From an uncultured Eisenbergiella sp. (GTDB lineage: Bacteria; Bacillota; Clostridia; Lachnospirales; Lachnospiraceae): DNA of 60,069 bases. Within the stretch, counting starts at the first letter, position 1; every line of letters begins with the position of its first letter. The notes below the pieces were generated by a model, which was given only the letters and a program-made list of their open reading frames with translations, ran no database searches and was not told the DNA's origin. The translations under genes were made by a program, and so were the position numbers. Positions 7,564 through 43,715 of this stretch are shown in pieces. The stretch spans positions 1-60,069 of the forward strand of contig CANQVD010000021.1 of NCBI GenBank assembly GCA_947627215.1, in the 5' to 3' direction.

Positions 7564-8658
7564 TTAGCGGTACTCTCTTCTTTTCTGTCTGCGCACCCGG
7601 TTGATGTGCCGTTCGAAATCGCCGCCCCGGATCAGCTCCGCCAGGACGTACTGGATGAAGGTAGGAACCGTGCAGGAGTAAAAACCGAGTTTTTTTTCAA
7701 AAAGCGGGGACAGGCGTTCGGGCAGGACCATATAGCCGGTCCGCAGGGACGGCGAGACGGTCTGGGAAAAGGTGTTCATGTAGATCACATTTTCCCGGTC
7801 CGTGTGGGTGAACAGGGTTTCCTCCGGTTTTCTCGAAACGGAGAACTCGGATTCGAAGTCGTCCTCCACCAGATAGCGGTCCCCTGTGTCCGCCCAGCGG
7901 ATGTACTCGTGCCGCTTGGAGGCGGAGGCGGTCACACCGCTGGGATAGCTGCGGTAGGGAGAGATATGGAGGATGTCGGCGCCGCTTTTCCAGAGGGCGG
8001 CGCTTTCGATGCCGTCCTTTCCCAGCGGGAGCATCTCATAGCGGACATTGCAGGCCTGATAGACCTGCTCTATTTTTTTGTAGGAAGGGGATTCGATCCC
8101 GTACGTCCGGTTCCGGCCCAGCAGCTCGACGATCAGGCTGTAAAGGTATTCGGAACCGGAACCGATGACGATCTGGGCCGGATCGGCGAAAATGCCGCGG
8201 CTCTGGGCCAGATACTGGCTGATGGCACGGCGCAGATACAGACAGCCCTGTCCCGGAGAGCGGTCGAGAATGGTTTCCCCGAAGTCGTTCATGACGCGCC
8301 GCATGGTTTTGGTCAGGACGGAAAAGGGAAATTCCGGAGCGGAACGGTCGGCGGAAGAATGCGTGGATAAAACCGACGGAGAGGTGTCCTCGCTGCCAGG
8401 AGCGAGAAAACCGTCCTCCACCCGGAAGCTCACGAAATAGCCGCTGCGTTCCCGGGCCTCGATATAGCCCTCCTCGCACAGAAGGTCATAGGCATGCTCC
8501 ACCGTCACGGTGCTGACGCCGGTCTCGGCAGCGGCGGTCCGGCGGGAGGGCAGCCTGTTCCCCCAGGGATATACGCCCCGGATGATGTCGTCCCGGATCA
8601 GCCGGTAGAGCTGCAGATAGGCGGGTGATTCGCTGTCCTTTTGAATGATATAGTTCAT
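7564..8658 (-). CDS. MocR-type (GntR HTH plus aminotransferase-like) regulator, atypical
   Basis: The N-terminus (about residues 8-75) is a GntR winged helix (YLQLYRLIRDDIIRG, RLPSRRTAAAETGVSTVTVE, GYIEARERSGYFV). The remainder is the fold-type I aminotransferase-like domain that in PdxR/MocR proteins binds PLP. Two oddities are seen directly. The PLP-lysine motif, normally SKT-like, reads NTFSQTVSPSLR, so the Schiff-base Lys is Gln. The protein also ends at residue 364, just after FERHINRVRRQKRREYR, without the roughly 90-residue small domain usual in the family. Divergent location beside a pyridoxamine kinase and an ECF S component points to control of vitamin B6 uptake and salvage. Ligand sensing without the lysine is open. 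Confidence 0.8.
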   Translation of the reverse strand: MNYIIQKDSESPAYLQLYRLIRDDIIRGVYPWGNRLPSRRTAAAETGVSTVTVEHAYDLLCEEGYIEARERSGYFVSFRVEDGFLAPGSEDTSPSVLSTHSSADRSAPEFPFSVLTKTMRRVMNDFGETILDRSPGQGCLYLRRAISQYLAQSRGIFADPAQIVIGSGSEYLYSLIVELLGRNRTYGIESPSYKKIEQVYQACNVRYEMLPLGKDGIESAALWKSGADILHISPYRSYPSGVTASASKRHEYIRWADTGDRYLVEDDFESEFSVSRKPEETLFTHTDRENVIYMNTFSQTVSPSLRTGYMVLPERLSPLFEKKLGFYSCTVPTFIQYVLAELIRGGDFERHINRVRRQKRREYR

Positions 8659-31746: not shown

Positions 31747-32548
31747 GGAAAAGGACACGTGGATCCACCGCCTGAGCGGCGTCACCAAGATGCTGTTTTT
31801 CCTGCTGTGGTCCATCACCGGCATGCTGACCTATGACACCCGCGTCCTGCTGGTGATGCTGGTGTTCAGCTTCGTGATCTTCTGGATGTCCAAGACCGAG
31901 TGGAAGCAGGTGGGCACGGTGTTCAAGTTCATCCTGTTCTTCCTCTGCCTGAACCTGCTGGCGGTGTACGCCTTCGCGCCTCATCAGGGCACAGAGATTT
32001 ACGGCACCATGACGGTGCTGGCGTTCTCCGGCAGATACAGCCTGACGGCGGAGCAGCTCTTTTACGAGTTCAATATCATGCTCAAATACCTGACCGTGAC
32101 GCCGGTGGTGCTGATGTTCATCGTTACCACCAATCCCAGCGAATTCGCGGCCAGCCTAAGCCGCCTGGGCATAAGCTATAACGTGGGCTATGCCATCGCC
32201 ATCGCGCTTCGCTATGTGCCGGACGTGCAGGCGGACTTCACCAAGATCAAGCACGCGCAGGAGGCGCGGGGCATCGAGATGAGCTCCAAGACTTCCCTGT
32301 GGGACCGCCTGAAAAAGATGAGCATGATCATTTTCCCGCTGCTCTTTTCCAGCATGGACCGCATCGACGTGGTCAGCAACGCCATGGAGCTGCGGGGCTT
32401 CGGCAAGCATAAGAAGCGCACCTGGTACATGGGGAAGAAGCTGGCGCTCAACGACTATCTGACCATCGCCTTTGTGGTGGTGTTTATGGTGGCCGCGCTG
32501 ACGATCACGTTCTCCCACGGGAGCAGGTTTTATAATCCGTTTGTTTGA
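31718..32548 (+). CDS. ecfT: ECF transporter transmembrane (T) component
   Basis: A 276-residue membrane protein. Helices near the N-terminus (MLFFLLWSITGMLTYDTRVLLVMLV-like region, about 25-55) precede the conserved cytoplasmic coupling helices with the Ala-Arg-Gly-type motifs: KIKHAQEARGIEM and NAMELRGFGKHKKRTW. These couple the ATPases to S components. The start overlaps the end of the ATPase gene and has GTGAGGG before it, so the two are translationally coupled. A long bidirectional hairpin lies 64 bp after its stop. Confidence 0.9.
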   Translation: MAGSRLLTYKEKDTWIHRLSGVTKMLFFLLWSITGMLTYDTRVLLVMLVFSFVIFWMSKTEWKQVGTVFKFILFFLCLNLLAVYAFAPHQGTEIYGTMTVLAFSGRYSLTAEQLFYEFNIMLKYLTVTPVVLMFIVTTNPSEFAASLSRLGISYNVGYAIAIALRYVPDVQADFTKIKHAQEARGIEMSSKTSLWDRLKKMSMIIFPLLFSSMDRIDVVSNAMELRGFGKHKKRTWYMGKKLALNDYLTIAFVVVFMVAALTITFSHGSRFYNPFV

Positions 32549-32611
32549 GCCTGTACTTTGGGGCGGGAGCTTCTTTTAAAGACGGATATCTGAGAATACT
32601 GTGATGCGGAC

Positions 32612-32675
32612 AAAACCGCCGCCGTTCGGCGGCCGGACCGGAAAGACGGTCGGGCTGGTGAACGGCGGCGGTTTT
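32612..32675. terminator. Bidirectional terminator shared by the ECF operon and the crRNA-like RNA
   Basis: A perfect 16-bp inverted repeat AAAACCGCCGCCGTTC / GAACGGCGGCGGTTTT (32612-32627 and 32660-32675) with an inner GACCG/CGGTC helix. It reads as a GC stem with a T tract in both directions: + for the ECF operon, - for the small RNA starting near 32796. Confidence 0.7.
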
Positions 32676-32796
32676 GGGTTGGGGGCGTCTTCCGAAAGAT
32701 GCGGCCTGCGGAGGACGTCCCGGGGATGGAACATTAACATATCCCATTACATTTTTCAATCCACATGAGAGCACGATATTTAAAATGCTTCATGAC
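32612..32796 (-). ncRNA. crRNA-like guide RNA predicted to target the cas promoter (CreR/CreA-like)
   Basis: On the minus strand the predicted transcript begins with a stem CATGAAGCA/TGCT-C-TCATG (32794-32786 and 32773-32764, one bulged C), followed at once by TGGATTGAAAA (32763-32753). The array repeats have the same order: stem CGCTCCCC/GGGGAGCG, then TGGATTGAAAT. Ten of the 11 handle bases are identical, as is the G closing the stem. The next 8 nt, ATGTAATG (32752-32745), are identical to 33003-33010 on the + strand, which is preceded by TTC, the known type I-C PAM. Allowing one unpaired target base, 18 of 19 pseudo-spacer positions match. A consensus-like promoter and a terminator bracket it. 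Only one repeat copy exists. It matches the logic of known CreA/CreR RNAs of other type I systems; function is inferred. Confidence 0.72.
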
Positions 32797-32802
32797 GAAT
32801 TC

Positions 32803-32831
32803 ATTATATCGGGGAGAGAAAAGATGTGCAA
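32803..32831 (-). promoter_or_regulatory. Promoter of the crRNA-like RNA
   Basis: On the minus strand TTGCAC (32831-32826), a 17-bp spacer and TATAAT (32808-32803) predict a start near 32796, that is, at the first base of the pseudo-repeat hairpin. Confidence 0.7.
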
Positions 32832-32999
32832 TCTTTTTTGGGAAAATTAAAGGACCTTTTGGCGGATACTGTTTCAGAGTCCGTTTTATAGGACAGAAAG
32901 AATGCTACAGTTCTTTTAATATATGTGGGTGTTGATTCATCAAAGATGCAGCTCGAATGTTCCGTGTGATATGATGTATTGCAGGAATGCCATTTTAAA

Positions 33000-33036
33000 T
33001 TCATGTAATGTGGACATGTTAAAATATATTGACACA
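33000..33036 (+). promoter_or_regulatory. Predicted Cascade target: TTC PAM and protospacer at the cas promoter
   Basis: TTC at 33000-33002 is followed by ATGTAATG, identical to the first 8 nt of the pseudo-spacer. One extra T (33011), GGA, a C/T mismatch and ATGTTAA (to 33022) continue the match. A 34-nt protospacer would end at 33036 and cover the -35 of the cas promoter. Partial pairing is expected to allow binding and repression but not Cas3 cleavage. Confidence 0.65.
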
Positions 33037-33057
33037 AATTGTGTTTTATGATAAGAT
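33029..33057 (+). promoter_or_regulatory. cas operon promoter with overlapping palindrome
   Basis: TTGACA (33029-33034), 17-bp spacer, TAAGAT (33052-33057), start near 33064. The perfect palindrome ACACAA-A-TTGTGT (33032-33044) overlaps the -35 and the spacer, which is a natural position for a repressor dimer. Confidence 0.7.
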
Positions 33058-33100
33058 ACGATAAAATGAGACAGGGACGTTCAGAGGGGTACATATTTTT

Positions 33101-35527
33101 ATGAAAACACTTGCTCATATTGTCATTCGGGATGGGATCCGACAGGAACAGGGACTCGCGGCGCATTGTTTGACGGCGGCGAAGTATGCATCGGAGTGCC
33201 TGCAGAAGACGAACCTTCAGAATACGGCTTTCCTGGCAGGCATACTGCATGATATGGGGAAAGGAAAGCAGACATTTTCCGATTATCTGGAAAGCGCATC
33301 CGCAGGGGAGGATGTGAAAAGAGGAAGCATCGATCATTCCACTGCCGGAATGGTCTGGCTGTTGGAAAGATTTCACACAGCGGCTTCTGACAAATGGGAA
33401 AAACTGACCAGCGAGATCATCGCATACGCTGTCGGAGCACACCACGGACTGTTCGATTGTGTGGACCTGGACGGCTGCAATGGTTTCCTGCGCAGACTGC
33501 AGAAGGACAGAGAAGAACTCGGGTACGCAGAAGCGCTGGAGAATTATTTTGAGGAAGTGATCTCCGAGAACGAATTGTGCCTGCACTTTGCACAGGCGAA
33601 GGCGGAGGTGCGGAGTTTTTTTGAAACGGCATCGGAGGAATATGGAAAAAGGCGCAGTGAAATCTTTTTTCAGATCAGTATGCTGGTGCGCCTGATCCTG
33701 TCAGCAGTTATATATGGGGACAGGAGGGATACGGGCGAGTTTATGGCGCAGGCGGACCGTCTGCAGAGAAGCCCGTATGACTGGCAGAGCAGACGGGAGT
33801 TTTTCGAAACAAAATATCGGGCTCTGGAAGCGGACAGCGGGCTGAATCTGGTCAGGCAGGATATCTCCAGGCAATGTCTGCGGTTTGCCGGTCGCGGGAG
33901 CGGGATCTTCAGGCTGAACGTTCCGACCGGAGGCGGGAAGACACTCAGCGCGCTTCGTTTCGGACTGGCGCATGTGGAAAAATACGATAAAAAACGGATC
34001 ATTTTTATCATTCCGCTGCTGAGCATTCTGGATCAGAATGTGAAAGTGATACGGGATTATCTTCCGGATCCGGAAAATGTTCTGGAGCACCATTCCAACG
34101 TCGTGAAGGAAAAAGAAGCGGGAGACCGGATGGATCAGTATGAGATCCTGGCGGAAAGCTGGGATTCGCCGGTCATCGTGTCCACTCTGGTGCAGTTTCT
34201 GGAAATATTGTTTTCCCATAAGACTTCGGCTGTCGGACGGCTGCAGGCTTTGAATGACAGCGTGATCGTGATCGATGAAGTACAGTCGCTGCCCTCGAAA
34301 ACGACATTTATGTTTAATATGGCGCTGAATTTTTTACAGAGATCCTGCAATGCGACGATCGTTTTGTCTTCGGCTACACAGCCGTGTTTTGACGAGCTGC
34401 AATGGCCGCTGCACTTTGCGGAAGAGGCGGATATGGTGCGTCTGTCAGCGGACCAGAGAAGGCTGTTTGAGCGTGCCGAAATACGGAACTGTACGGATCC
34501 TTATGGAATGAGCCTTGAGCAGTGCGGGGAATTCTGCGCTGGGCTGATGAAAAAGCATGTATCCCTGCTGGTTGTCTGCAATACGAAAGCGGAGGCAGGA
34601 AGACTGTTCGAAATGCTTGCGGGACGTGAGGATGCGGCGGAGTGGGATGTTTTTCATCTGTCCACATCCATGTGTCAGGGGCACAGGCTTGATACGATGG
34701 AACGTCTGCAGAACCGGCTGAAGACGATTCAGAAGGAGCGGCAAAACGGGACGGTGGAGAGAAAAACATTGTGTATTTCCACACAGCTGATCGAGGCAGG
34801 CGTTGATCTCTCTTTTGAGGGCGTGGTGCGTGTCCTGGCCGGAATCGACAATCTGGTGCAGGCGGCAGGGCGGTGCAATCGAAGCAATGAATACGGAGAT
34901 TTCGGGACGGTCTATATGATAAATCTCCGAAACGAAAACCTCAGTATGCTTCCGGAGATCGCGAATGCCCGCAGCAGTACGCTGCAGGTCCTGGAATGCG
35001 CCGGCAATTCCAATGATTTTTCTCTGGCGGGAGAAGAGGCCGCAAGGCTGTTTTACCGGTATTTGTTTGAAAAGACGAAGGACGGCATGAAATATCCGAT
35101 AAGAGACTGCGGAATGACACTGTATCTTGCCGAACTGTTGGGCAACAGGAACGGAGCGGCGCAGACGGGTGAAAATCTTCGCTTCATTCTGCGACAGCCG
35201 TTTAAAACGGCAGGGGAGCGATTCAGGGTATTTGACCGGCAGACGACGGATGTACTCGTTCCGTATCAGGCGGGAGAGCAGTTGATAGAGAGGCTGGCAT
35301 ATCTGGGAGGACGGTCCTTCTCGCTCGCGGAGTACAGGGATGCGCTGCGTGAGGCGAAACAGTATACGGTAAATCTTTACGACTGGCAGATATCGAAACT
35401 GGAGCAGGCAGGCCTTCTGCGTCATCTGCTGGATGACCGCATTCTGGTGTTGGACGGACAGGCCTATGATCCGGATGTGGGAGTTTCTGTATTGGAAGAA
35501 CAGCCGGTCGGAAATTATATCGTGTGA
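33101..35527 (+). CDS. cas3: Cas3 helicase-nuclease (type I-C)
   Basis: 808 residues. The N-terminal HD nuclease has GLAAHCLTAAKYA, LAGILHDMGKGKQTF (the HD pair), DHSTAGM and AYAVGAHHG. The helicase follows: Walker A NVPTGGGKTLSALR, motif II VIVIDEVQSLPS, motif III LSSATQP, motif V QLIEAGVDLSFEG, motif VI LVQAAGRCNRSNE. It is recruited by Cascade to unwind and degrade target DNA. AGAGGGG lies about 12 nt before the ATG. A 12-codon frame (33065-33104) overlaps the start. It is the first gene of the cas operon and has a lower GC content than its chromosomal neighbours, consistent with acquisition. Confidence 0.95.
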   Translation: MKTLAHIVIRDGIRQEQGLAAHCLTAAKYASECLQKTNLQNTAFLAGILHDMGKGKQTFSDYLESASAGEDVKRGSIDHSTAGMVWLLERFHTAASDKWEKLTSEIIAYAVGAHHGLFDCVDLDGCNGFLRRLQKDREELGYAEALENYFEEVISENELCLHFAQAKAEVRSFFETASEEYGKRRSEIFFQISMLVRLILSAVIYGDRRDTGEFMAQADRLQRSPYDWQSRREFFETKYRALEADSGLNLVRQDISRQCLRFAGRGSGIFRLNVPTGGGKTLSALRFGLAHVEKYDKKRIIFIIPLLSILDQNVKVIRDYLPDPENVLEHHSNVVKEKEAGDRMDQYEILAESWDSPVIVSTLVQFLEILFSHKTSAVGRLQALNDSVIVIDEVQSLPSKTTFMFNMALNFLQRSCNATIVLSSATQPCFDELQWPLHFAEEADMVRLSADQRRLFERAEIRNCTDPYGMSLEQCGEFCAGLMKKHVSLLVVCNTKAEAGRLFEMLAGREDAAEWDVFHLSTSMCQGHRLDTMERLQNRLKTIQKERQNGTVERKTLCISTQLIEAGVDLSFEGVVRVLAGIDNLVQAAGRCNRSNEYGDFGTVYMINLRNENLSMLPEIANARSSTLQVLECAGNSNDFSLAGEEAARLFYRYLFEKTKDGMKYPIRDCGMTLYLAELLGNRNGAAQTGENLRFILRQPFKTAGERFRVFDRQTTDVLVPYQAGEQLIERLAYLGGRSFSLAEYRDALREAKQYTVNLYDWQISKLEQAGLLRHLLDDRILVLDGQAYDPDVGVSVLEEQPVGNYIV

Positions 35528-35572: not shown

Positions 35573-36295
35573 ATGAAAATGGCTTACAGGAATACGGTAG
35601 AATTTGAAGTGTCGGGAGAGTATGCGCTGTTTTCCGATCCGGTTACCCGGGTCGGCGGGGAAAAATTTTCCTATCAGATTCCGACTTATGAGGCGCTGAA
35701 AGGGATCTTACAGAGCGTTTATTGGAAACCTTCACTGATCTGGATCATCGACGGGGCGCGTGTCATGAATCCGATCCAGACGGAGACAAAAGGGGTGCGT
35801 CCGATAAAATATTACAGCGATAAAAACGATCTGTCTTATTATACCTATTTGAAGGACTGCAGGTATCAGGTACGCGCGCATTTCATCTGGAATGAAAACC
35901 GGCCGGAGCTGGCGGCAGACCGCAATGAGAACAAGCATCACAACATTGCGAGAAGAATGATCGAAAAAGGCGGAAGACGGGATATATTTCTGGGGACACG
36001 GGAATGTCAGGGATATGTGAAACCCTGTGTCTTCGGGGAGGGAAAGGGCTTTTACGATGAGATACAGGAGCTGGATTTTGGCATGATGTATCATGGGGTC
36101 ACCTATGCGGATGAAGCGTACTCCGAAGAAACGAAGGGGAAGATGAGCATTCGGCTGTGGCAGGCTGTTATGAAAAAAGGCGTCATAGCATTTCTCCCGC
36201 CCTGGGAATGTATTCACAGACCTGTACGTGAAATGAATATCAAAAGATTTGGAAAGGATTACGGGAATTTTGATTTTCGGGAGGAGGTGATGTAG
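35573..36295 (+). CDS. cas5c: Cas5c (Cas5d), pre-crRNA endonuclease and Cascade subunit
   Basis: 240 residues. In type I-C this RAMP protein replaces Cas6: it cuts pre-crRNA at the 3' base of the repeat hairpin and stays on the 5' handle. The N-terminal ferredoxin-like fold (FEVSGEYALFSDPVTRVGGE, YEALKGILQSVYWKPS) and ENKHHNIARRM, with the Lys/His region known to be catalytic in Cas5c homologues, are visible. The Tyr that acts with it is plausibly in the SVYWKP segment. GAGGAGG precedes the ATG. The gene ends immediately before the cas8c ATG. Confidence 0.93.
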   Translation: MKMAYRNTVEFEVSGEYALFSDPVTRVGGEKFSYQIPTYEALKGILQSVYWKPSLIWIIDGARVMNPIQTETKGVRPIKYYSDKNDLSYYTYLKDCRYQVRAHFIWNENRPELAADRNENKHHNIARRMIEKGGRRDIFLGTRECQGYVKPCVFGEGKGFYDEIQELDFGMMYHGVTYADEAYSEETKGKMSIRLWQAVMKKGVIAFLPPWECIHRPVREMNIKRFGKDYGNFDFREEVM

Positions 36296-38197
36296 ATGTC
36301 CTGGATGAGCCAGCTTTACAGAACATATGAAAACAATGTGGGGCGGGGCGGTCCGGCCGGAGAACAGATGATCCCGGTGGCGCATATGAATGCCAATGCG
36401 CAGTTGGAGATCACATTGAACTTGTCGGGAGAATTTCAGGGCGCGGTATGTGTCGCCAGGGAGAATGCTGTGACATTGATCCCCGTCACGGAAGCATCGG
36501 AAGGACGCAGCTCGGGGATCGCGCCTCATGCGCTATGCGACACGCTTTCTTATGTTGCCGGAGATTTCGGTTCATACTGTGCGGAGGAAAAGCAGAGAAA
36601 GACAGCGGAGAATAAATTTCAGAGCTATATGAAGAATCTTCAGGACTGGAAAGAATCGGCGTTTTCTCATCCCAAGATCTGTGCGGTTTACGCCTATCTC
36701 ATGAAAAAAGAGCTGATAGCGGATCTGTATCGGGCCGGGATCGTGGAACTGAACGGGGAACGAAAGTTTGAGAACCGCAAGATTTCGGGTCTGCCTTATG
36801 AGAAGGCACTGGTCCGGTTCCGGATAAACGGTTCCGAACCGGCCGCCGCATGGGAGGACGTCTCTTTGATCCAGTCGTATACGGCATATTATCAGAGTGT
36901 GCAGCAGGGGAAAAAGGATGTCTGCTATTTTACGGGAAAGGAGGCTGTCATTGCCGAAAACCATCCGAAGGGAATCATTGCCGCGAACTACGGGGCCAAA
37001 CTGGTATCGGCGAACGACAGTCAGGGTTATACATACCGCGGCAGATTTCAGGATGCCCCGCAGGCCTTCACATTGAGCTATGAGGCCTCGCAGAAGATCC
37101 ACCGGGCGTTGACCTACCTGGCCAAAAACCAGGGAGCATATGTGGGAACAAAGGATAAGCGGACATTCCTCTGCTGGAGCCCGGAAGGGAAGCGGACGCC
37201 GGATCTGTTCCAGGAGTTTTCGAGGATGGCATCGGATGTCATGGATGAGTTCGATCTGGAAGAGGATGAGATGCAGCGGGCGGACGAAATCCCATACAGA
37301 CGGAAGCTGATCCGCGCTTTTCAGGGATACCGGGATCAGTTTGAGGGGATGGATTCCATCGTCGTTATGGCGCTGGATGCCGCCACCACCGGCCGCCTGT
37401 CCGTGACTTATTACAGCGAACTTCCGGCGCAGATCTTTTTGGACAGGCTTCAGTTCTGGGGAGAAACCTGCAGTTGGTATTTTTTGCGGTTCAATGAGAA
37501 CAAAAAGCCCTATTATGCAGTGGAAACGCCGACTTTCCGAAGGATAGCTGAATGTGCCTACGGCAGAGAACGCGGGAACAGCCTCGAGGCGGATGACAGA
37601 GTGTTAAAAGAGCAGGTTCAAAGACTCGTAGAGTGTATGGTGGACGGCAGAAGGATCCCGTACGATCTGGTCTGCGCTCTGACCGCCAGAGCGTCGCTTC
37701 CGCTTGCTTATTCCAGGGGGAACAGAGAACGGGTGTTGTCCACAGCATGTGCGGTGATCGCGAAATATTATCGGGAAAAAGAAACAGGAAAGAGAGGAGA
37801 AGGTATAACAATGAAGCTGGATGAAAAGAACCGGGACAGAAGTTATCTGTTCGGAAGACTGCTGGCAGTTTATGAGAAAGTAGAGCGCAGTACCTATGAC
37901 AGGGAAGAAACGCGTGAAACCAATGCGATCCGATTACAGTCTGCCTTTGTGAATCATCCCCTGCAGACCTGCATGACCCTGGAAGAAATGATGAATCCCT
38001 ATTTTCAAAAGCTGAAGCCGGGGCTGCGGGATTACTACAAAAACCAGATCGGGGACATCCTCGCAGCGCTGCAGGAAGAAGACGGGGATCTGCTGAATCA
38101 GGGACTAAAGGAAACCTATCTGCTCGGATATTATCTTCAAAGAGCGGAATTAAACAAAAAGAAAGAAGCCAAAAAGGAGGAAAACGAAAATGAGTAG
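36296..38197 (+). CDS. cas8c: Cas8c (Csd1), Cascade large subunit
   Basis: 633 residues. The large subunit recognises the PAM (TTC in type I-C) and opens target DNA. The opening SWMSQLYRTYENN, the PVAHMNANAQLEI segment, QGYTYRGRF and LTYLAKNQGAYVGTKDKRTFL-like region (about 270-300) match the Csd1 family. The 3' fifth also encodes the small subunit from an internal start (separate entry). GGAGGTG precedes the ATG, which abuts the cas5c stop. The end overlaps cas7c by 8 bp. Confidence 0.93.
   Translation: MSWMSQLYRTYENNVGRGGPAGEQMIPVAHMNANAQLEITLNLSGEFQGAVCVARENAVTLIPVTEASEGRSSGIAPHALCDTLSYVAGDFGSYCAEEKQRKTAENKFQSYMKNLQDWKESAFSHPKICAVYAYLMKKELIADLYRAGIVELNGERKFENRKISGLPYEKALVRFRINGSEPAAAWEDVSLIQSYTAYYQSVQQGKKDVCYFTGKEAVIAENHPKGIIAANYGAKLVSANDSQGYTYRGRFQDAPQAFTLSYEASQKIHRALTYLAKNQGAYVGTKDKRTFLCWSPEGKRTPDLFQEFSRMASDVMDEFDLEEDEMQRADEIPYRRKLIRAFQGYRDQFEGMDSIVVMALDAATTGRLSVTYYSELPAQIFLDRLQFWGETCSWYFLRFNENKKPYYAVETPTFRRIAECAYGRERGNSLEADDRVLKEQVQRLVECMVDGRRIPYDLVCALTARASLPLAYSRGNRERVLSTACAVIAKYYREKETGKRGEGITMKLDEKNRDRSYLFGRLLAVYEKVERSTYDREETRETNAIRLQSAFVNHPLQTCMTLEEMMNPYFQKLKPGLRDYYKNQIGDILAALQEEDGDLLNQGLKETYLLGYYLQRAELNKKKEAKKEENENE
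37811..38197 (+). CDS. cas11c: Cas11c small subunit from an internal start in cas8c
   Basis: 128 residues translated in frame with the C-terminus of cas8c (codon 506 onward). The internal ATG has its own strong ribosome site AGGAGAAGG (37795-37803) 7 nt upstream, embedded in the cas8c frame. Such internally initiated small subunits are established for type I-C systems, where several copies line the Cascade belly and bind the non-target strand. The product begins MKLDEKNRDRSYLFGRLL, is helical and has a Lys/Glu-rich tail. Automatic annotation normally misses it. Confidence 0.82.
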   Translation: MKLDEKNRDRSYLFGRLLAVYEKVERSTYDREETRETNAIRLQSAFVNHPLQTCMTLEEMMNPYFQKLKPGLRDYYKNQIGDILAALQEEDGDLLNQGLKETYLLGYYLQRAELNKKKEAKKEENENE

Positions 38198-39038
38198 CTT
38201 ACAGAACAAAGTGGATTTTCTGGTGCTGGTGAAGGTGGTAAATGCGAATCCCAATGGGGATCCGCTGAATGGGAACCGCCCCCGGACAACGTATACGGGG
38301 CAGGGAGAAATATCCGATGTCTGCATCAAGAGAAAACTGAGGAACCGCCTTCAGGACATGGGAGAAAATATTTTCGTGCAGTCGGCGGACCGCAGTGATG
38401 ACGGCTTTTCCTCATTGAGTGAGCGTGCATCGGGAAACATCGTTCATTATACGGACAGCGGCGATTACGCCAGACAGGCATGCGAGAAGTGGATCGATGT
38501 CCGGGCCTTTGGGCAGGTATTCGCGTTTAAGAGCAAAGATAAGAAGGAGGGGGTCTCTGTCGGTGTAAGAGGTCCTGTGTCCGTTCATCAGGCGGTGAGC
38601 TGTTCTCCGATCGATATTAACAGTATGCAGATCACGAAGAGCGTAAACGGAGAACCCACAGAGGGAAGAAGCTCGGATACGATGGGCACAAAGCATTATG
38701 TAGAGTTTGGGCTTTACAAAGTAAAGGGCTCCATTAATGTTCAGCTCGCAGAAAAAACAGGATTTTCGGAGGAGGATGCTGAGAAACTGAAGGAGGCGCT
38801 TCGGACGCTGTTTATCAATGATGCCTCCGCGGCCAGGCCGGATGGAAGTATGGAGGTCGTGACTCTGTATTGGTGGAGACACAATAACAAGATCGGGCAG
38901 TATTCGGCTTCTAAGGTACATGATTCCGTGAAAATAAGTCCCAAAGAAGGGATTTCCGTTCCGAGAGCGCTGGAGGATTACGATATCTCTCTGGAAGAGT
39001 TTGCGGATCTCAAACCGGAGATCATTCCCGGTATTTGA
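38190..39038 (+). CDS. cas7c: Cas7c (Csd2), Cascade backbone
   Basis: A 282-residue RAMP protein that polymerises along the crRNA spacer. VVNANPNGDPLNGNRPRTTY is the family hallmark, followed by ISDVCIKRKLRNRLQD. The C-terminal half has VVTLYWWRHNNKIGQYSASK. AAAAGGAGG precedes the ATG, which lies within the last codons of cas8c/cas11c. Stoichiometry and role follow from the family. Confidence 0.95.
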   Translation: MSSLQNKVDFLVLVKVVNANPNGDPLNGNRPRTTYTGQGEISDVCIKRKLRNRLQDMGENIFVQSADRSDDGFSSLSERASGNIVHYTDSGDYARQACEKWIDVRAFGQVFAFKSKDKKEGVSVGVRGPVSVHQAVSCSPIDINSMQITKSVNGEPTEGRSSDTMGTKHYVEFGLYKVKGSINVQLAEKTGFSEEDAEKLKEALRTLFINDASAARPDGSMEVVTLYWWRHNNKIGQYSASKVHDSVKISPKEGISVPRALEDYDISLEEFADLKPEIIPGI

Positions 39039-39043
39039 TCGGT

Positions 39044-39700
39044 ATGTATCGCGAAGAGGATTATCTGATGCTGTCAGGCCTGCAGCATTTCATGTTTTGC
39101 AGGAGACAGTGGGCGTTGATCCATGTGGAACAGCAGTGGGCCGAAAATGAACGGACTGTGGACGGACATTTATTCCATGCGACGGCACATGACGGAAGCC
39201 GTTTTGAAAAGAGGGGAGATATACTCATAACGAGAGGCCTGAATATAAGATCATCTTCCCTCGGGATGACAGGGATCTGTGATGTAGTGGAATTTCACCG
39301 GTCGGAGAAGGGCGTCTCTCTTCCGGATTTCGCCGGGACATGGCAGGCATATCCTGTGGAATACAAGAAAGGACTTCCGAAGGAGAATGATGCGGATCTT
39401 GTCCAGTTGTGTGCGCAGGCGATTTGCCTCGAGGAAATGTTATTGTGTGAAGTGCCGGAGGGCAGTCTGTTTTACGGAGAGAGTCAGCGCAGGCTGCGAG
39501 TGGAATTCTCAGAAGAGCTGCGCGAGAGGGTATGTGCTGCGGCCAGAGAAATGCACAGACTGTGGGAACAGGGCTATACGCCGAAAGTGAAGCCGAAAAA
39601 AGGCTGTAACGCATGTCCTTTGAAAGAAATCTGCATCCCCGGTTTGGGCAGGTCAGGCACGGCATCCGTATATATTCAGAAGAAGCTCCGGGAGGACTGA
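39044..39700 (+). CDS. cas4: Cas4 (PAM-selecting adaptation nuclease)
   Basis: 218 residues from ATG 39044 (MYREEDYLMLSGLQHFMFC); a TTG at 39035 that overlaps the cas7c stop is an equally possible start. Cas4 trims prespacers and fixes PAM choice and orientation with Cas1-Cas2. The four iron-sulfur cysteines are the one in HFMFCRRQW and three in GCNACPLKEICIPG at the C-terminus. The RecB-type nuclease core is visible as GICDVVEFHRS and AYPVEYKKGLPKENDADLVQ, with EYK as the catalytic strand. Confidence 0.92.
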   Translation: MYREEDYLMLSGLQHFMFCRRQWALIHVEQQWAENERTVDGHLFHATAHDGSRFEKRGDILITRGLNIRSSSLGMTGICDVVEFHRSEKGVSLPDFAGTWQAYPVEYKKGLPKENDADLVQLCAQAICLEEMLLCEVPEGSLFYGESQRRLRVEFSEELRERVCAAAREMHRLWEQGYTPKVKPKKGCNACPLKEICIPGLGRSGTASVYIQKKLRED

Positions 39701-39701
39701 T

Positions 39702-40733
39702 ATGCGGAAATTACTGAATACACTGTTCGTTACCAGCGAAAATGCATATCTGTCATTGGATGGGGAAACGGTCTGCGTGGAGATCGGACATCAGAAGGCG
39801 GGGCAGTTTCCGCTTCATACCCTGGAGAATATCTTGTGCTTTTCAAGGGCGGGGGCATCTCCGGCATTTATGGGAGAATGTGCCCGGAGAGGGATCGGGC
39901 TGTGCCTTTTTTCTCCCGGCGGGAGATTTTTGTGCCGTGCGGTCGGGGAAGCATGTGGAAATGTACTGCTCCGCAAGCAGCAATATCGTCTTTCGGATGA
40001 TGCGGTCTCCAGTTGCCGGATCGCGAAAAATATGATCCTCGGGAAGGTGTTTAATTGCCGATGGAGCATAGACAGAACGCTGCGGGATCATTCTCTGCGC
40101 GTGAAGGAAGAGCCCTGCAGGGATACGATCCGTTTTTTACAGGAAGCGCTGGAAAGGATACCGCGGGAGGAAGACATGGATTCCTTAAGAGGGATCGAGG
40201 GCGAATGTGCGTCGGTTTACTTCGGTGTTTTTGATGAATTAATACTGAATCAAAAAGATGCGTTTTCCTTTCATGGCAGGAACAGACGACCTCCGTTGGA
40301 TCCGGTAAACGCGATGCTTTCTTTTGGGTATACGCTTTTGGCCAATGACTGCGCGAATGCGCTGGAGGGAGTCGGACTGGATCCTTACGTCGGCTTTCTG
40401 CATCGTGACAGGCCGGGCAGAAAATCGATGGCATTGGACATTATGGAGGAATTGAGAGCCATCCTTGTGGATCGTTTTGTATTGACGCAGATCAATAATC
40501 GCCAAATAAGAAAAGAGCATTTTCAACTGTCGGAGAGCGGCGCGGTGCTGTTCACGGATGAAGGGAAAAGAAAATTTCTCACATCATGGCAGGAGCATAA
40601 ACGTGAACAGATCTGTCACCCGTTCCTTCAGGAAAAAATCTGTTGGGGGCTGGTCCCTCATATTCAGGCGCTGCTGCTGGCGCGGTATCTTCGTGACGAT
40701 ATTGATGAATATCCGCCGTTTTTATGGAAGTGA
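39702..40733 (+). CDS. cas1: Cas1 integrase (type I-C)
   Basis: A 343-residue spacer-integration enzyme. The N-terminal beta domain has FVTSENAYLSLDGETVCV. The catalytic helical domain has LRGIEGECASVYF (metal Glu), DPYVGFLHRDRPGRKSMALDI (His and Asp/Glu) and VDRFVLTQINNRQI. It starts 1 bp after the cas4 stop and forms the adaptation complex with Cas2. Confidence 0.95.
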   Translation: MRKLLNTLFVTSENAYLSLDGETVCVEIGHQKAGQFPLHTLENILCFSRAGASPAFMGECARRGIGLCLFSPGGRFLCRAVGEACGNVLLRKQQYRLSDDAVSSCRIAKNMILGKVFNCRWSIDRTLRDHSLRVKEEPCRDTIRFLQEALERIPREEDMDSLRGIEGECASVYFGVFDELILNQKDAFSFHGRNRRPPLDPVNAMLSFGYTLLANDCANALEGVGLDPYVGFLHRDRPGRKSMALDIMEELRAILVDRFVLTQINNRQIRKEHFQLSESGAVLFTDEGKRKFLTSWQEHKREQICHPFLQEKICWGLVPHIQALLLARYLRDDIDEYPPFLWK

Positions 40734-40740
40734 GAAGATC

Positions 40741-41031
40741 ATGCTCGTACTTATCACATATGATGTCAGCACAGAGGACGCAAAAGGAAAAGCCAGGCTG
40801 AGAAAGGTCGCCAGACAATGCGTGAATTATGGAAAACGGGTGCAGAACTCCGTGTTTGAGTGTATACTCGATGCGGGACAATGCAAGCTGTTAAAGGCAA
40901 AGCTGCTGGAGATAATCGATACGGATAAGGACAGCCTGCGGCTTTATTATTTAGGCAACCAATATCAAAACAAAGTGGAACATCATGGGGCGAAAAAAAC
41001 TTATGATCAGGAAGGCGTTCTGATCCTATGA
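40741..41031 (+). CDS. cas2: Cas2 (adaptation complex scaffold)
   Basis: 96 residues. MLVLITYDVSTED has the family Asp after the first strand, then RLRKVARQCVNYGKRVQNSVFEC and LRLYYLGNQYQNKVEHHG. The gene starts 7 bp after cas1 and is the last cas gene before the leader and array. Confidence 0.95.
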   Translation: MLVLITYDVSTEDAKGKARLRKVARQCVNYGKRVQNSVFECILDAGQCKLLKAKLLEIIDTDKDSLRLYYLGNQYQNKVEHHGAKKTYDQEGVLIL

Positions 41032-41191: not shown

Positions 41192-42911
41192 GTCGCTCCC
41201 CGCGAGGGGAGCGTGGATTGAAATGATCATAAGATGGCACAGCACCCGGACGTCGCGGTCGCTCCCCGCGAGGGGAGCGTGGATTGAAATCTGGAACGTC
41301 TCCGGCATGATAACCGCGGTGCCAATGTCGCTCCCCGCGAGGGGAGCGTGGATTGAAATACGGTGTTGTACAGTCTGCTCATGCCATCCCCTCCATGTCG
41401 CTCCCCGCGAGGGGAGCGTGGATTGAAATAACGGGATAAAGGGAATCTTTTCGACGGATCCGGGTCGCTCCCCGCGAGGGGAGCGTGGATTGAAATAACA
41501 ACAACGGCAATGCCAACAACAACAACGCGTCCGTCGCTCCCCGCGAGGGGAGCGTGGATTGAAATAAGTTTACACTCATCGAGGCGATGAATGAGGAAGT
41601 GTCGCTCCCCGCGAGGGGAGCGTGGATTGAAATCGATATGTCGGCCACGCGATCCATCCCGCCGTCCCGTCGCTCCCCGCGAGGGGAGCGTGGATTGAAA
41701 TGTCAAGCGTTTACCTGCGCAAAGCCTGAAACGGCGTCGCTCCCCGCGAGGGGAGCGTGGATTGAAATATCCAGTGAAACGCTAATAGTAAACATATATT
41801 GCACGTCGCTCCCCGCGAGGGGAGCGTGGATTGAAATATAGACGCGGAAGTCCGCGTGAATGATATTAACGGGTCGCTCCCCGCGAAGGGAGCGTGGATT
41901 GAAATCCAAACGCATGCAGAATGTGGAAGGGAACGATGAGGTCGCTCCCCGCGAGGGGAGCGTGGATTGAAATGTTCTGCGCGAAATCAGGCAGAGGAAT
42001 TTGAGAACGTCGCTCCCCGCGAGGGGAGCGTGGATTGAAATTCACCTATCATTATAGATACGTGGCTGGCAGACAGTCGCTCCCCGCGAGGGGAGCGTGG
42101 ATTGAAATCCTGTGGTTTCCGTCCCGATCAGCTCCATTCCGCTGTCGCTCCCCGCGAGGGGAGCGTGGATTGAAATTATACGACCGGGAAGAATCAGGAT
42201 AACGGGAACAGTCGCTCCCCGCGAGGGGAGCGTGGATTGAAATAGGTATTTTACTACCATATAGACTGTCGATGCAAGTCGCTCCCTGCGAGGGGAGCGT
42301 GGATTGAAATCCGTTACAAGGCAACTGCAGCATAACAGCATAATGTCGCTCCCTGCGAGGGGAGCATGGATTGAAATAACAGTGGGGACCGCTAGATGAT
42401 TTTGGTAGGCCGTCGCTCCCTGCGAGGGGAGCGTGGATTGAAATGCTCTTTGCGGCTTCGGATACGGACGTTCCGATAGTCGCTCCCTGCGAGGGGAGCG
42501 TGGATTGAAATCGCTCGCCGGGCCCCCCAGCGATGCCCCCGGCTCGTCGCTCCCTGTGAGGGGAGCGTGGATTGAAATTCTGCTGTTGAAGTCCTCTTTG
42601 AAACAGTCCAAAGTCGCTCCCTGCGAGGGGGCGTGGATTGAAATGGCAAGAGGAGCCGCGCCTGGGACACGACCCATTTCGTCGCTCCCCGCGAGGGGGG
42701 TGGATTGAAATTGGGATCCTCTGTCCCATGTATATAACGCTCGAAGTCGCTTCCCGCGAGGGGGCGTGGATTGAAATCTCTCTGCCTACATGGGGCGGCG
42801 GCTGATTCGCGGTCGCTCCCCGAGAGGGGAGTGTGGATTGAAATCTCTTTATCCCCAAAGTGAAAATCCGTCAAAATAAGTCGCTCCCCGTGAGGGAGAG
42901 TGGATTGAAAT
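41192..42911 (+). CRISPR. Type I-C CRISPR array, 26 repeats and 25 ordinary spacers
   Basis: The 33-bp repeat starts GTCGCTCCCC-GCGA-GGGGAGCG and ends TGGATTGAAAT, with an 8-bp stem CGCTCCCC/GGGGAGCG. Repeats start at 41192, 41258, 41327, 41397, 41464, 41533, 41601, 41669, 41736, 41805, 41873, 41941, 42009, 42076, 42144, 42211, 42278, 42345, 42412, 42479, 42546, 42613, 42681, 42746, 42812 and 42880. Spacers are 33-37 bp. The first 10 repeats are identical. Repeats 17-22 share a C-to-T change (CTCCCTGCGAG) that turns a stem pair into G-U. Repeats 22-24 and 26 have 1-2 bp deletions. This places the old end on the right. A 27th decayed repeat follows after 316 bp. Confidence 0.97.
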
Positions 42912-43227
42912 GGGACTGCGGGAGTGCTTCCCGGAGGCATACAGAAAGTTTGAGGAGATGCTCAGAGATGGCGTTACCTAAATATCTGCAAGGACCGCAC
43001 CGGAAATTGACGGCAATAGAGGAGCGTTGTCTGGATTTGAAGGAGCAGTATGAGGACAGATATGGGGAGTGGGATTGGGATGAATTTGGATATGTACAGA
43101 CCGATGAGGAAATGATAGAGGCGCTTGAAATCTGTTTAAAGGAAGGAAAGTGCATGAAAGAGGTTCGGCCAGAGTGGTGCGAGGAGCTGCCACCGTGGAT
43201 ATGGACCTGATAGACTTTTCCCGCAAC
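42912..43227 (+). other. 316-bp phage-like segment in place of a spacer
   Basis: Between repeats 26 and 27 lies a segment about nine times the normal spacer length. It carries the 3' end of one reading frame (42913-42981, ending FEEMLRDGVT) that overlaps by 14 bp the start of a complete second frame (42968-43210). Tightly overlapping small genes are typical of phages. The segment contains no repeat internally. Confidence 0.7.
42968..43210 (+). CDS. Small phage-like protein of unknown function inside the array
   Basis: 80 residues, MALPKYLQGPHRKLTAIEER at the start, then an acidic middle (YGEWDWDEFGYVQTDEEMIE) and a Trp/Pro-rich end (EWCEELPPWIWT). It looks like a genuine soluble protein and not a repeat artefact: composition is balanced and it overlaps the end of another frame as phage genes do. 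The nearest ribosome-like sequence is GAGGAG at 42953-42958. It is not recognised. It may be a passive fragment of captured phage DNA, or an expressed gene. Confidence 0.45.
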   Translation: MALPKYLQGPHRKLTAIEERCLDLKEQYEDRYGEWDWDEFGYVQTDEEMIEALEICLKEGKCMKEVRPEWCEELPPWIWT

Positions 43228-43256
43228 GTCGCTCCCCGCAAGGGGGCGTGGATTGA
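43228..43256 (+). repeat. Decayed terminal CRISPR repeat (repeat 27)
   Basis: GTCGCTCCCCGC-AAGGGGGCG followed by TGGATTGA matches the array repeat but has lost stem bases and the last AAT. It marks the old distal end of the array. Confidence 0.85.
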
Positions 43257-43715
43257 TTGAGATAATGCATCTTCAAATGAAAAGTCGCTAAACCCTTCCC
43301 AGAATCAATGCTCAACGGATATAGATAACATAAGCTGATAGAAAGCGGTACTGCGTGAGCATATCGCCTTTTATGAAAAGATATGCATTGCAATCAGGAT
43401 ATTTTTCACTAATTACCGAAAAAATATATTGCTAATTTCCGAATTTTTCATGTCATTTCCATATCAAAGAGTATAATTCAGAAGATAGGCAGGTACGTAT
43501 ATACACAGAAAGGAACAGAATATCTTTACGTCTGGGACAAATCTCAACTGTCTGCTGAAGGGTGTGATGCTGATGCCGCGCTGATTGCTAGGCGATAACT
43601 TGCGTCTAAGGTCTAAGCTGCGGGATGTGGTTCGGTTTGAGATGGATCATTGTGGAGAGATGAGTTTGAGGGAACTGTTTAAACAGAAGTCTTCGCACAA
43701 TATCAGACCAAAACC
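43257..43715. other. Non-coding stretch downstream of the array
   Basis: No intact gene. An AT-rich part (43400-43480) holds two 12-bp direct repeats, CTAATTACCGAA (43409-43420) and CTAATTTCCGAA (43432-43443), and a TATAAT (43472-43477). Downstream short open fragments can be read (for example VVRFEMDHCGEMSLRELFKQ in one frame near 43625-43690), possibly debris of a lost gene. I could not identify them. Confidence 0.4.

Follow-up and report, generated by a model that had tools for sequence, protein, structure and literature searches.

The 552-nt gap before cas3 in a type I-C CRISPR-Cas operon of an uncultured Eisenbergiella sp. carries, on the minus strand, a predicted RNA gene that diverges from the operon and is built like a crRNA unit. 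The question raised by this locus is whether the RNA guides Cascade to the promoter of its own genes, as a first-pass annotation had proposed. The window, which is the whole 60,069-nt stretch of DNA analyzed here, places the element between a CbiQ-like transporter gene, whose match lies below its family's cut-off, and the cas operon. This operon is a complete type I-C system in the order cas3-cas5c-cas8c-cas7c-cas4-cas1c-cas2, followed by the array, and the NCBIfam families of its proteins (Cas5c, Cas8c, Cas7c, Cas1c) bear out the subtype assigned in the annotation. The features of the window are as follows.

32612..32675, unstranded: 16-bp bidirectional terminator ending the RNA gene (arms 32612-32627 and 32660-32675)
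32734..32752, minus strand: guide stretch pairing with the cas promoter region at 18/19 positions (scored guide positions 1-17: 15/15 with one target bulge)
32753..32763, minus strand: crRNA 5' handle TGGATTGAAAA, identical to the array handle TGGATTGAAAT save for the last base
32764..32796, minus strand: pseudo-repeat, comprising GT and a bulged 9-bp hairpin with a C-G closing pair and a degenerate stem sequence (fold prediction)
32803..32831, minus strand: promoter of the crRNA-like RNA (TTGCAC 32831-32826, N17, TATAAT 32808-32803)
33000..33002, plus strand: PAM TTC (read directly from the sequence)
33003..33022, plus strand: target site (T33011 unpaired; guide position 12 faces C33015)
33003..33036, plus strand: 34-nt protospacer footprint, which would span the -35 (the -35 begins at protospacer offset 26)
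33029..33057, plus strand: cas operon promoter (TTGACA 33029-33034, N17, TAAGAT 33052-33057)
33101..35527, plus strand: cas3 (NCBIfam)
35573..36295, plus strand: cas5c, expected pre-crRNA endonuclease (TIGR01876)
36296..38197, plus strand: cas8c (TIGR01863)
38190..39038, plus strand: cas7c (TIGR02589)
39035..41031, plus strand: cas4, cas1c and cas2 (NCBIfam)
41192..42911, plus strand: CRISPR array with repeat GTCGCTCCCCGCGAGGGGAGCGTGGATTGAAAT and 26 handles containing TGGATTGAAA

The anatomy of the RNA gene is as the annotation had described it. A check of coordinates recovers the minus-strand promoter TTGCAC-N17-TATAAT, the sequence and its minimum-free-energy fold reproduce the bulged 9-bp hairpin, closed by a G and followed by an 11-nt handle that departs from the array handle in its last base, and the 16-bp bidirectional terminator is found in its place. 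The pseudo-repeat retains the 5' GT of the real repeat at 32796-32795, where transcription is predicted to start, which would make the pseudo-repeat the 5' end of the RNA. At -8.1 kcal/mol (z = -1.38) the hairpin is the most stable predicted structure, and 22 of 200 shuffles fold equally well, so that thermodynamics by itself argues weakly for it. From guide position 6 onward the RNA can also fold on itself (32747-32726, minus strand) into a 9-bp hairpin, which may mark the 3' end or impede pairing. A search of 32300-33300 against Rfam returned six matches up to E = 5, none at gathering level; the terminator hairpin accounts for five of them, and the sixth falls at another place.

The handle itself is rare outside arrays. 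The 10-mer TGGATTGAAA has 8 copies outside the two CRISPR arrays of the 4.04-Mb genome, the window copy included (a tally from 61 listed places), so about 0.001 would be expected in the 552-nt gap. The eight nucleotides that follow the handle recur at 33003-33010 as ATGTAATG, directly preceded by TTC, again as the annotation had it. Aligned with TTC-ATGTAATG-T-GGACATGTTAA (33000-33022), the guide matches at 18 of 19 positions with T33011 unpaired, the single mismatch being guide position 12. This match had also been claimed beforehand; none of 2,000 shuffled guides, allowed equal freedom, attains it (shuffle maximum 15). A 34-nt protospacer starting here indeed covers the -35 of the cas promoter TTGACA-N17-TAAGAT. 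With the bulge disallowed, the match shrinks to 8 contiguous nucleotides, and since it requires one unpaired target base, repression at this locus could be weak or decaying.

When one bulge is allowed throughout the survey described below, the window scores 15/15, locus L122 15 and locus L106 14, the last with its bulge at the same position as that of the window; in cross-locus trials (n=2,983) none reaches 15 and one reaches 14. Elsewhere in its own genome the window guide has no other target under 2 mismatches (PAM required, positions 6 and 12 free, no bulge). Against the second type I-C locus of that genome (C3) its best score is 11/15, and a YTY PAM is absent from the three sites shown. 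The 26 array spacers give six 13/15 matches in other parts of the window; all six lack a YTY PAM and lie away from the cas promoter. The final array repeats of the window (42611-43259) are degenerate, the last one lying beyond a gap of >300 nt.

The second type I-C locus (G000:C3:14135-34134, L039) comprises cas5c-cas8c-cas7c; the scanned frames include neither cas3 nor cas1. It is flanked by a TnpB gene upstream and by recombinase-like and adenine-methyltransferase genes downstream, with an array ∼10 kb away. Right after its cas7c, at ∼8160-8255 of the reverse complement, is a mini-CRISPR in which two degenerate repeats enclose a ∼36-nt spacer; with up to 3 mismatches allowed, the first 29 nt of this spacer match nowhere else in the genome.

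Related type I-C loci were gathered by searching for Cas5c in genomes sampled at genus, family, order, class and phylum level and in named genomes (best 80 of 571). Genomes were taken among those with a match (family 23/24, order 40/50 new, class 35/56, phylum 25/81), mostly by contig room; three further genomes of the class-level set and two of the phylum-level set were already included. This gave 188 loci in which cas3 is preceded by at least 150 nt, 184 of them distinct after duplicate removal; loci with <150 nt before cas3 or no Cas3 match (L039 included), array-like elements and duplicates were left out. Within 900 nt before cas3 we collected 75 handle elements, and within 700 nt before cas5c a further 38, giving 113. 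Handles were sought with that of the local array, allowing up to 1 mismatch, or with four variants at loci that showed no array. Each element was scored on its best target flanked by a YTY PAM in the same region, over guide positions 1-17 minus 6 and 12 (15 positions). L053, array-like under a stricter rule, was kept under the looser rule for the 113-element scan; L081 (score 15) and L084 (14) fall outside the scanned regions and hence outside the 113-element counts. Of 41 plasmid records with type I-C loci, 6 were covered, and a phage collection yielded one remote Cas5c match.

Guides that match a site beside their own cas genes recur across this sample. At least 13/15 is reached by 41 of the 113 stand-alone handle elements against a YTY-PAM site next to the cas3 or cas5c of the same locus, and 22 of these 41 score 15/15; when guides are instead set against the regions of other loci, 3 of 6,734 reach 13. 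The positive elements represent 40 distinct guides in 40 loci. The window is an extra case, counted separately because its guide match needs a one-base bulge; the other gapped cases (L106 and L122) and L037 (12/15) likewise stand outside the 40. The annotation had looked to related type I-C loci for the handle, register and PAM together with a covarying guide/promoter pair, and this combination is present in 40 of the 184 distinct loci, against the 3/6,734 of the control and with a six-base periodicity besides; the remaining 143 loci, the window aside, fail the ungapped test. Positive loci occur in every batch (family 9/24, order 4/34, named 16/68, class 10/32, phylum 1/25), those among the named genomes being mostly metagenome assemblies. 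Thirty of the 40 lie before cas3 and 10 before cas5c, with 32 oriented opposite to the operon, and the PAMs, in a scan restricted to YTY, are TTC in 28, TTT in 8 and CTC in 4. A handle-blind search returned 327 pairs of at least 14/15; compared with the handle, the 11-mer just before differs at 0-1 positions in 18 of them, at 2-3 in none and at 4 or more in 309 (many of them array repeats).

The close relatives L103, L105 and L108 lack an exact handle in the 800 nt ahead of cas3 and are absent from the positives. Elements between cas3 and cas5c are seen in L090, L121, L126, L139, L186, L188, L200, L202, L204 and L223, and also in L081 and L084; the first ten have a minus-strand target ahead of cas5c, L081 and L084 a plus-strand one. 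A handle, hairpin and terminator also stand between cas3 and cas5c in L244 (near 5041, minus strand), on plasmid pY5S7-1 of the Bacilli soil strain Paenibacillus amylolyticus, with no target of at least 13/15 and a proper PAM within 700 nt. Near-canonical solitary repeats precede cas3 in L227 (-118) and L228 (-177), neither with a matching target (best 10 and 11 of 15). L106 and L053 display a two-repeat form as well, which is perhaps the ancestral state.

The most distinctive feature of these matches is their rhythm. Over the 40 guides, mismatches number 28 at position 6, 30 at position 12, 32 at position 18 and 12 at position 17, with 0-3 at each of the others in 1-16, the score being blind to 6 and 12. 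From position 18 onward, where the score has ended (at 17), 26-35 of 40 guides mismatch, near the chance value of three quarters, and matching in the relatives stops near 17 nt. With targets picked by total matches over positions 1-20, 20 of 48 elements reach at least 15 (shuffled guides: 99th percentile 14, maximum 15, n=960), and these 20 mismatch at positions 6, 12, 17, 18, 19 and 20 in 10, 14, 4, 17, 14 and 13 cases, and in 0-2 elsewhere in 1-16. One of them, a second element of L054, lacks the rhythm and is probably a chance match. In an even phase test, which keeps 15 positions per phase and allows at most 1 mismatch, omission of 6 and 12 yields 32 of the 113 elements, compared with 12-14 for the five other phases and 12 with nothing omitted, shuffled guides giving at most 1 in 20 rounds. 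On 48 elements the same test yields 17 for the 6/12 phase versus 7-8 for the others; it is preferred to an uneven version (17/48 versus 3), in which phases 1-5 faced a harder threshold. In type I effectors each sixth base of the crRNA is turned outward and left unpaired, and, read against this general rule, the rhythm in which 6, 12 and 18 are skipped is the apparent footprint of Cascade.

The pseudo-repeat is likewise shared. A GT-stem of at least 4 bp reaching the handle is present in 32/40 positives versus 10/72 other handle elements, and right arms swapped between elements produce such a stem in 221 of 1,560 combinations (14.2%), a control that repeats the choice of left arm. In a test of 27 elements whose left arm was chosen for pairing, own arms form 4.78 of 5 pairs against 3.11 for swapped arms (0/10,000 permutations). 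The stems covary: in the 27, which were picked for their GT-stem, pair 1 is always C-G, and pairs 3 and 4 each show all four Watson-Crick types. GTC is invariant across 26 aligned pseudo-repeats; a covariance model of this alignment would match the array repeats as well. At some loci the handle equals the local variant exactly (L053 and L054, with TGAGTTGAAA), and at others (L044, L215) it is one base off. As the search itself used the local handle, agreement with the local variant is just consistent with co-evolution.

Upstream of the GT, at 4-8 nt and usually 6, a TATAAT-like box (at least 5/6) is found in 20 of the 32 GT-stem positives, against 4.9% of 1,376 random sites. A simple terminator rule applied within 150 nt detects 15/40 positives and 24/400 random stretches. 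The detected stems begin 17-32 nt past the handle in 14 cases, so that at least those 14 RNAs bear a guide shorter than an array spacer, and at 60 nt in one; that of the window begins ∼77 nt past the handle. Promoter-like sites near the target were sought at 37 loci (the window included, some outside the 40), and 36 yielded one. The 34-nt protospacer covers the -35 or -10 of the best such site in 27/36 loci and misses it in 9/36, an overlap common by chance, since any predicted promoter overlaps 61.6% of random places. A site scoring at least 10/12 overlaps the protospacer in 21/36 loci versus 5.9% of random places. This strong promoter-like overlap, with the recurrence and the periodicity, lends comparative support to the autoregulatory guide of the annotation.

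As judged from sequence, this is very probably a CreR-type RNA through which the type I-C Cascade represses its own genes. Since differently worded versions of the guide stand in dozens of relatives, the defence complex probably turns down its own production. We infer that transcription would start at 32796 with the degenerate repeat and that Cas5c would cut 3' of the closing G of the hairpin, giving an 11-nt handle followed by the guide. The type I-C processing cut leaves a handle of this length at this position. A passage of one report names Cas5 as the type I-C processing enzyme (PMC10651486). Cascade loaded with the RNA would recognize TTC at 33000 and pair through three five-base segments (guide 1-5, 7-11 and 13-17), and its footprint would cover the -35 of the cas promoter and block RNA polymerase. 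Pairing ends near 17-19 nt, so a full R-loop would not form, Cas3 would remain untriggered and the chromosome uncut. In type I-F1, truncated R-loops fail to trigger Cas2/3, according to a passage of the relevant study (PMC7296934), and by analogy the same behavior may carry over to type I-C. Cascade would thereby limit its own synthesis, and array crRNAs or anti-CRISPR proteins that draw Cascade off would raise cas expression.

We propose more tentatively, as a possibility somewhat short of an even chance, that widespread and previously unlisted type I-C autoregulatory guides share one design. Pairing would be fixed at three Cas7 segments (5+5+5 read bases), the terminator would leave a short guide, a shortened and Cas3-silent Cascade would act as a natural repressor, and the RNA gene would have settled at two operon promoters, one before cas3 and one before cas5c.

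Several other explanations of the window element bear on this. Its one-base bulge, set against ungapped pairing at 40 other loci, could mean that the guide once worked and is now decaying in this genome, its pairing broken by the unpaired T33011. We think this unlikely, given that all 15 scored positions of guide 1-17 match, that L106 has the same bulge at 14/15, and that the promoter, handle and terminator are intact. The bulge aside, guide and target share one intergenic region and the window match is short, as would be expected if they were two transcription-factor sites or a local duplication and there were no RNA guide at all. This account is hardly credible: the handle stands on one copy and the PAM on the other, the likeness passes over 6 and 12 and breaks off near 17 nt, a shift of phase lowers the matching elements from 32 to 12-14 of 113, and the 40 guides differ in sequence.

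The two remaining alternatives accept an RNA and assign it another role. It might be a Racr-like decoy that titrates Cas5c or Cascade, the promoter match being incidental, for which there is precedent in a solitary type I-C repeat unit from a prophage that inhibits type I-C (RacrIC1, in a passage of PMC10651486). We hold a decoy to be very improbable, because the guide/promoter match recurs in 40 loci, with differing sequences and at the bases that Cascade is expected to read, and the element adjoins the cas operon. Alternatively, as in CreTA or CrePA, a CreA-like antitoxin RNA would guide Cascade to repress a toxin gene and not the cas operon. The anatomy is of the same kind as that of CreA RNAs, as a passage of PMC9458426 describes them, and targets 513 (L054), 384 (L212) and 374 nt (L184) before cas3 leave room for a small RNA. 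In the window, however, the -10 of the targeted promoter begins 49 nt before cas3 with no gene between. At seven loci whose targets are distant, forward frames that start with ATG between target and cas3 reach at most 38 codons, stop included, and four of these loci have none of at least 25, an RNA toxin being possible there. On this evidence an antitoxin role is improbable.

If the preferred reading, a CreR-type RNA used by the type I-C Cascade against its own promoter, is true, type I-C systems would gauge by means of a guide how much Cascade they have, and cas expression would be tied to crRNA load and to anti-CRISPR attack. Natural guide/target pairs would then reveal which R-loop bases Cascade uses in living cells. 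They would also show what length of pairing evolution tolerates without self-cutting, and hence give design rules for type I-C based gene repression. The survey yields 40 test cases besides the window, in what a passage of one source counts among the commonest CRISPR subtypes (PMC7684278).

Known CreRs have a two-repeat mini-CRISPR form, and Shmakov 2023 reportedly surveyed lone repeats, termed CRISPR-derived regulatory elements, whose spacers have partial complementarity to cas promoters; type I-C cases may already be listed there. According to a passage of one review, CreR cas-regulating RNAs belong to types I-B, I-E and V-A (PMC13131331), and another review, in which the term I-C is absent, assigns such RNAs to type I and V-A. 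The literature surveyed, in a search that did not reach the primary CreR paper or Shmakov 2023, showed no type I-C cas-regulating RNA, and its passages gave no account of type I-C self-regulation.

Like CreR, the window encodes a predicted crRNA-like RNA beside cas, with a degenerate repeat, a PAM, partial complementarity to the cas promoter and its own effector as the expected partner; like CreR, it has no coupled toxin gene, and nothing lies between the target and cas3. It differs from CreR in its subtype, I-C being outside the reported I-B, I-E and V-A, which concerns where such RNAs have been shown so far and not how they work. It differs further in that Cas5c is the expected processing enzyme, that sites occur before cas3 or before cas5c, that many type I-C loci have one repeat and then a terminator in place of the two-repeat form, and that pairing is restricted to three five-base segments, over ∼17 nt. 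The type I-C elements resemble the CRISPR-derived regulatory elements in being stand-alone repeats whose spacers partly match cas promoters. With CreA of CreTA they share the degenerate repeat, the partial match and Cascade as putative repressor, but in the window the target promoter leads into cas3 and no toxin was found. The solitary type I-C-type repeat unit recalls Racr (RacrIC1). Racrs are encoded on mobile elements; the window element lies beside cas, and its guide matches the cas promoter. In tracr-L guided autoregulation, Cas9 uses a short guide to repress its own promoter, as Cascade would here, but tracr-L belongs to type II and a single protein. In contrast to a canonical array unit, with its ∼34-nt spacer between two repeats, the window element is a single unit in which the stem differs from that of the array repeat and a terminator replaces the second repeat.
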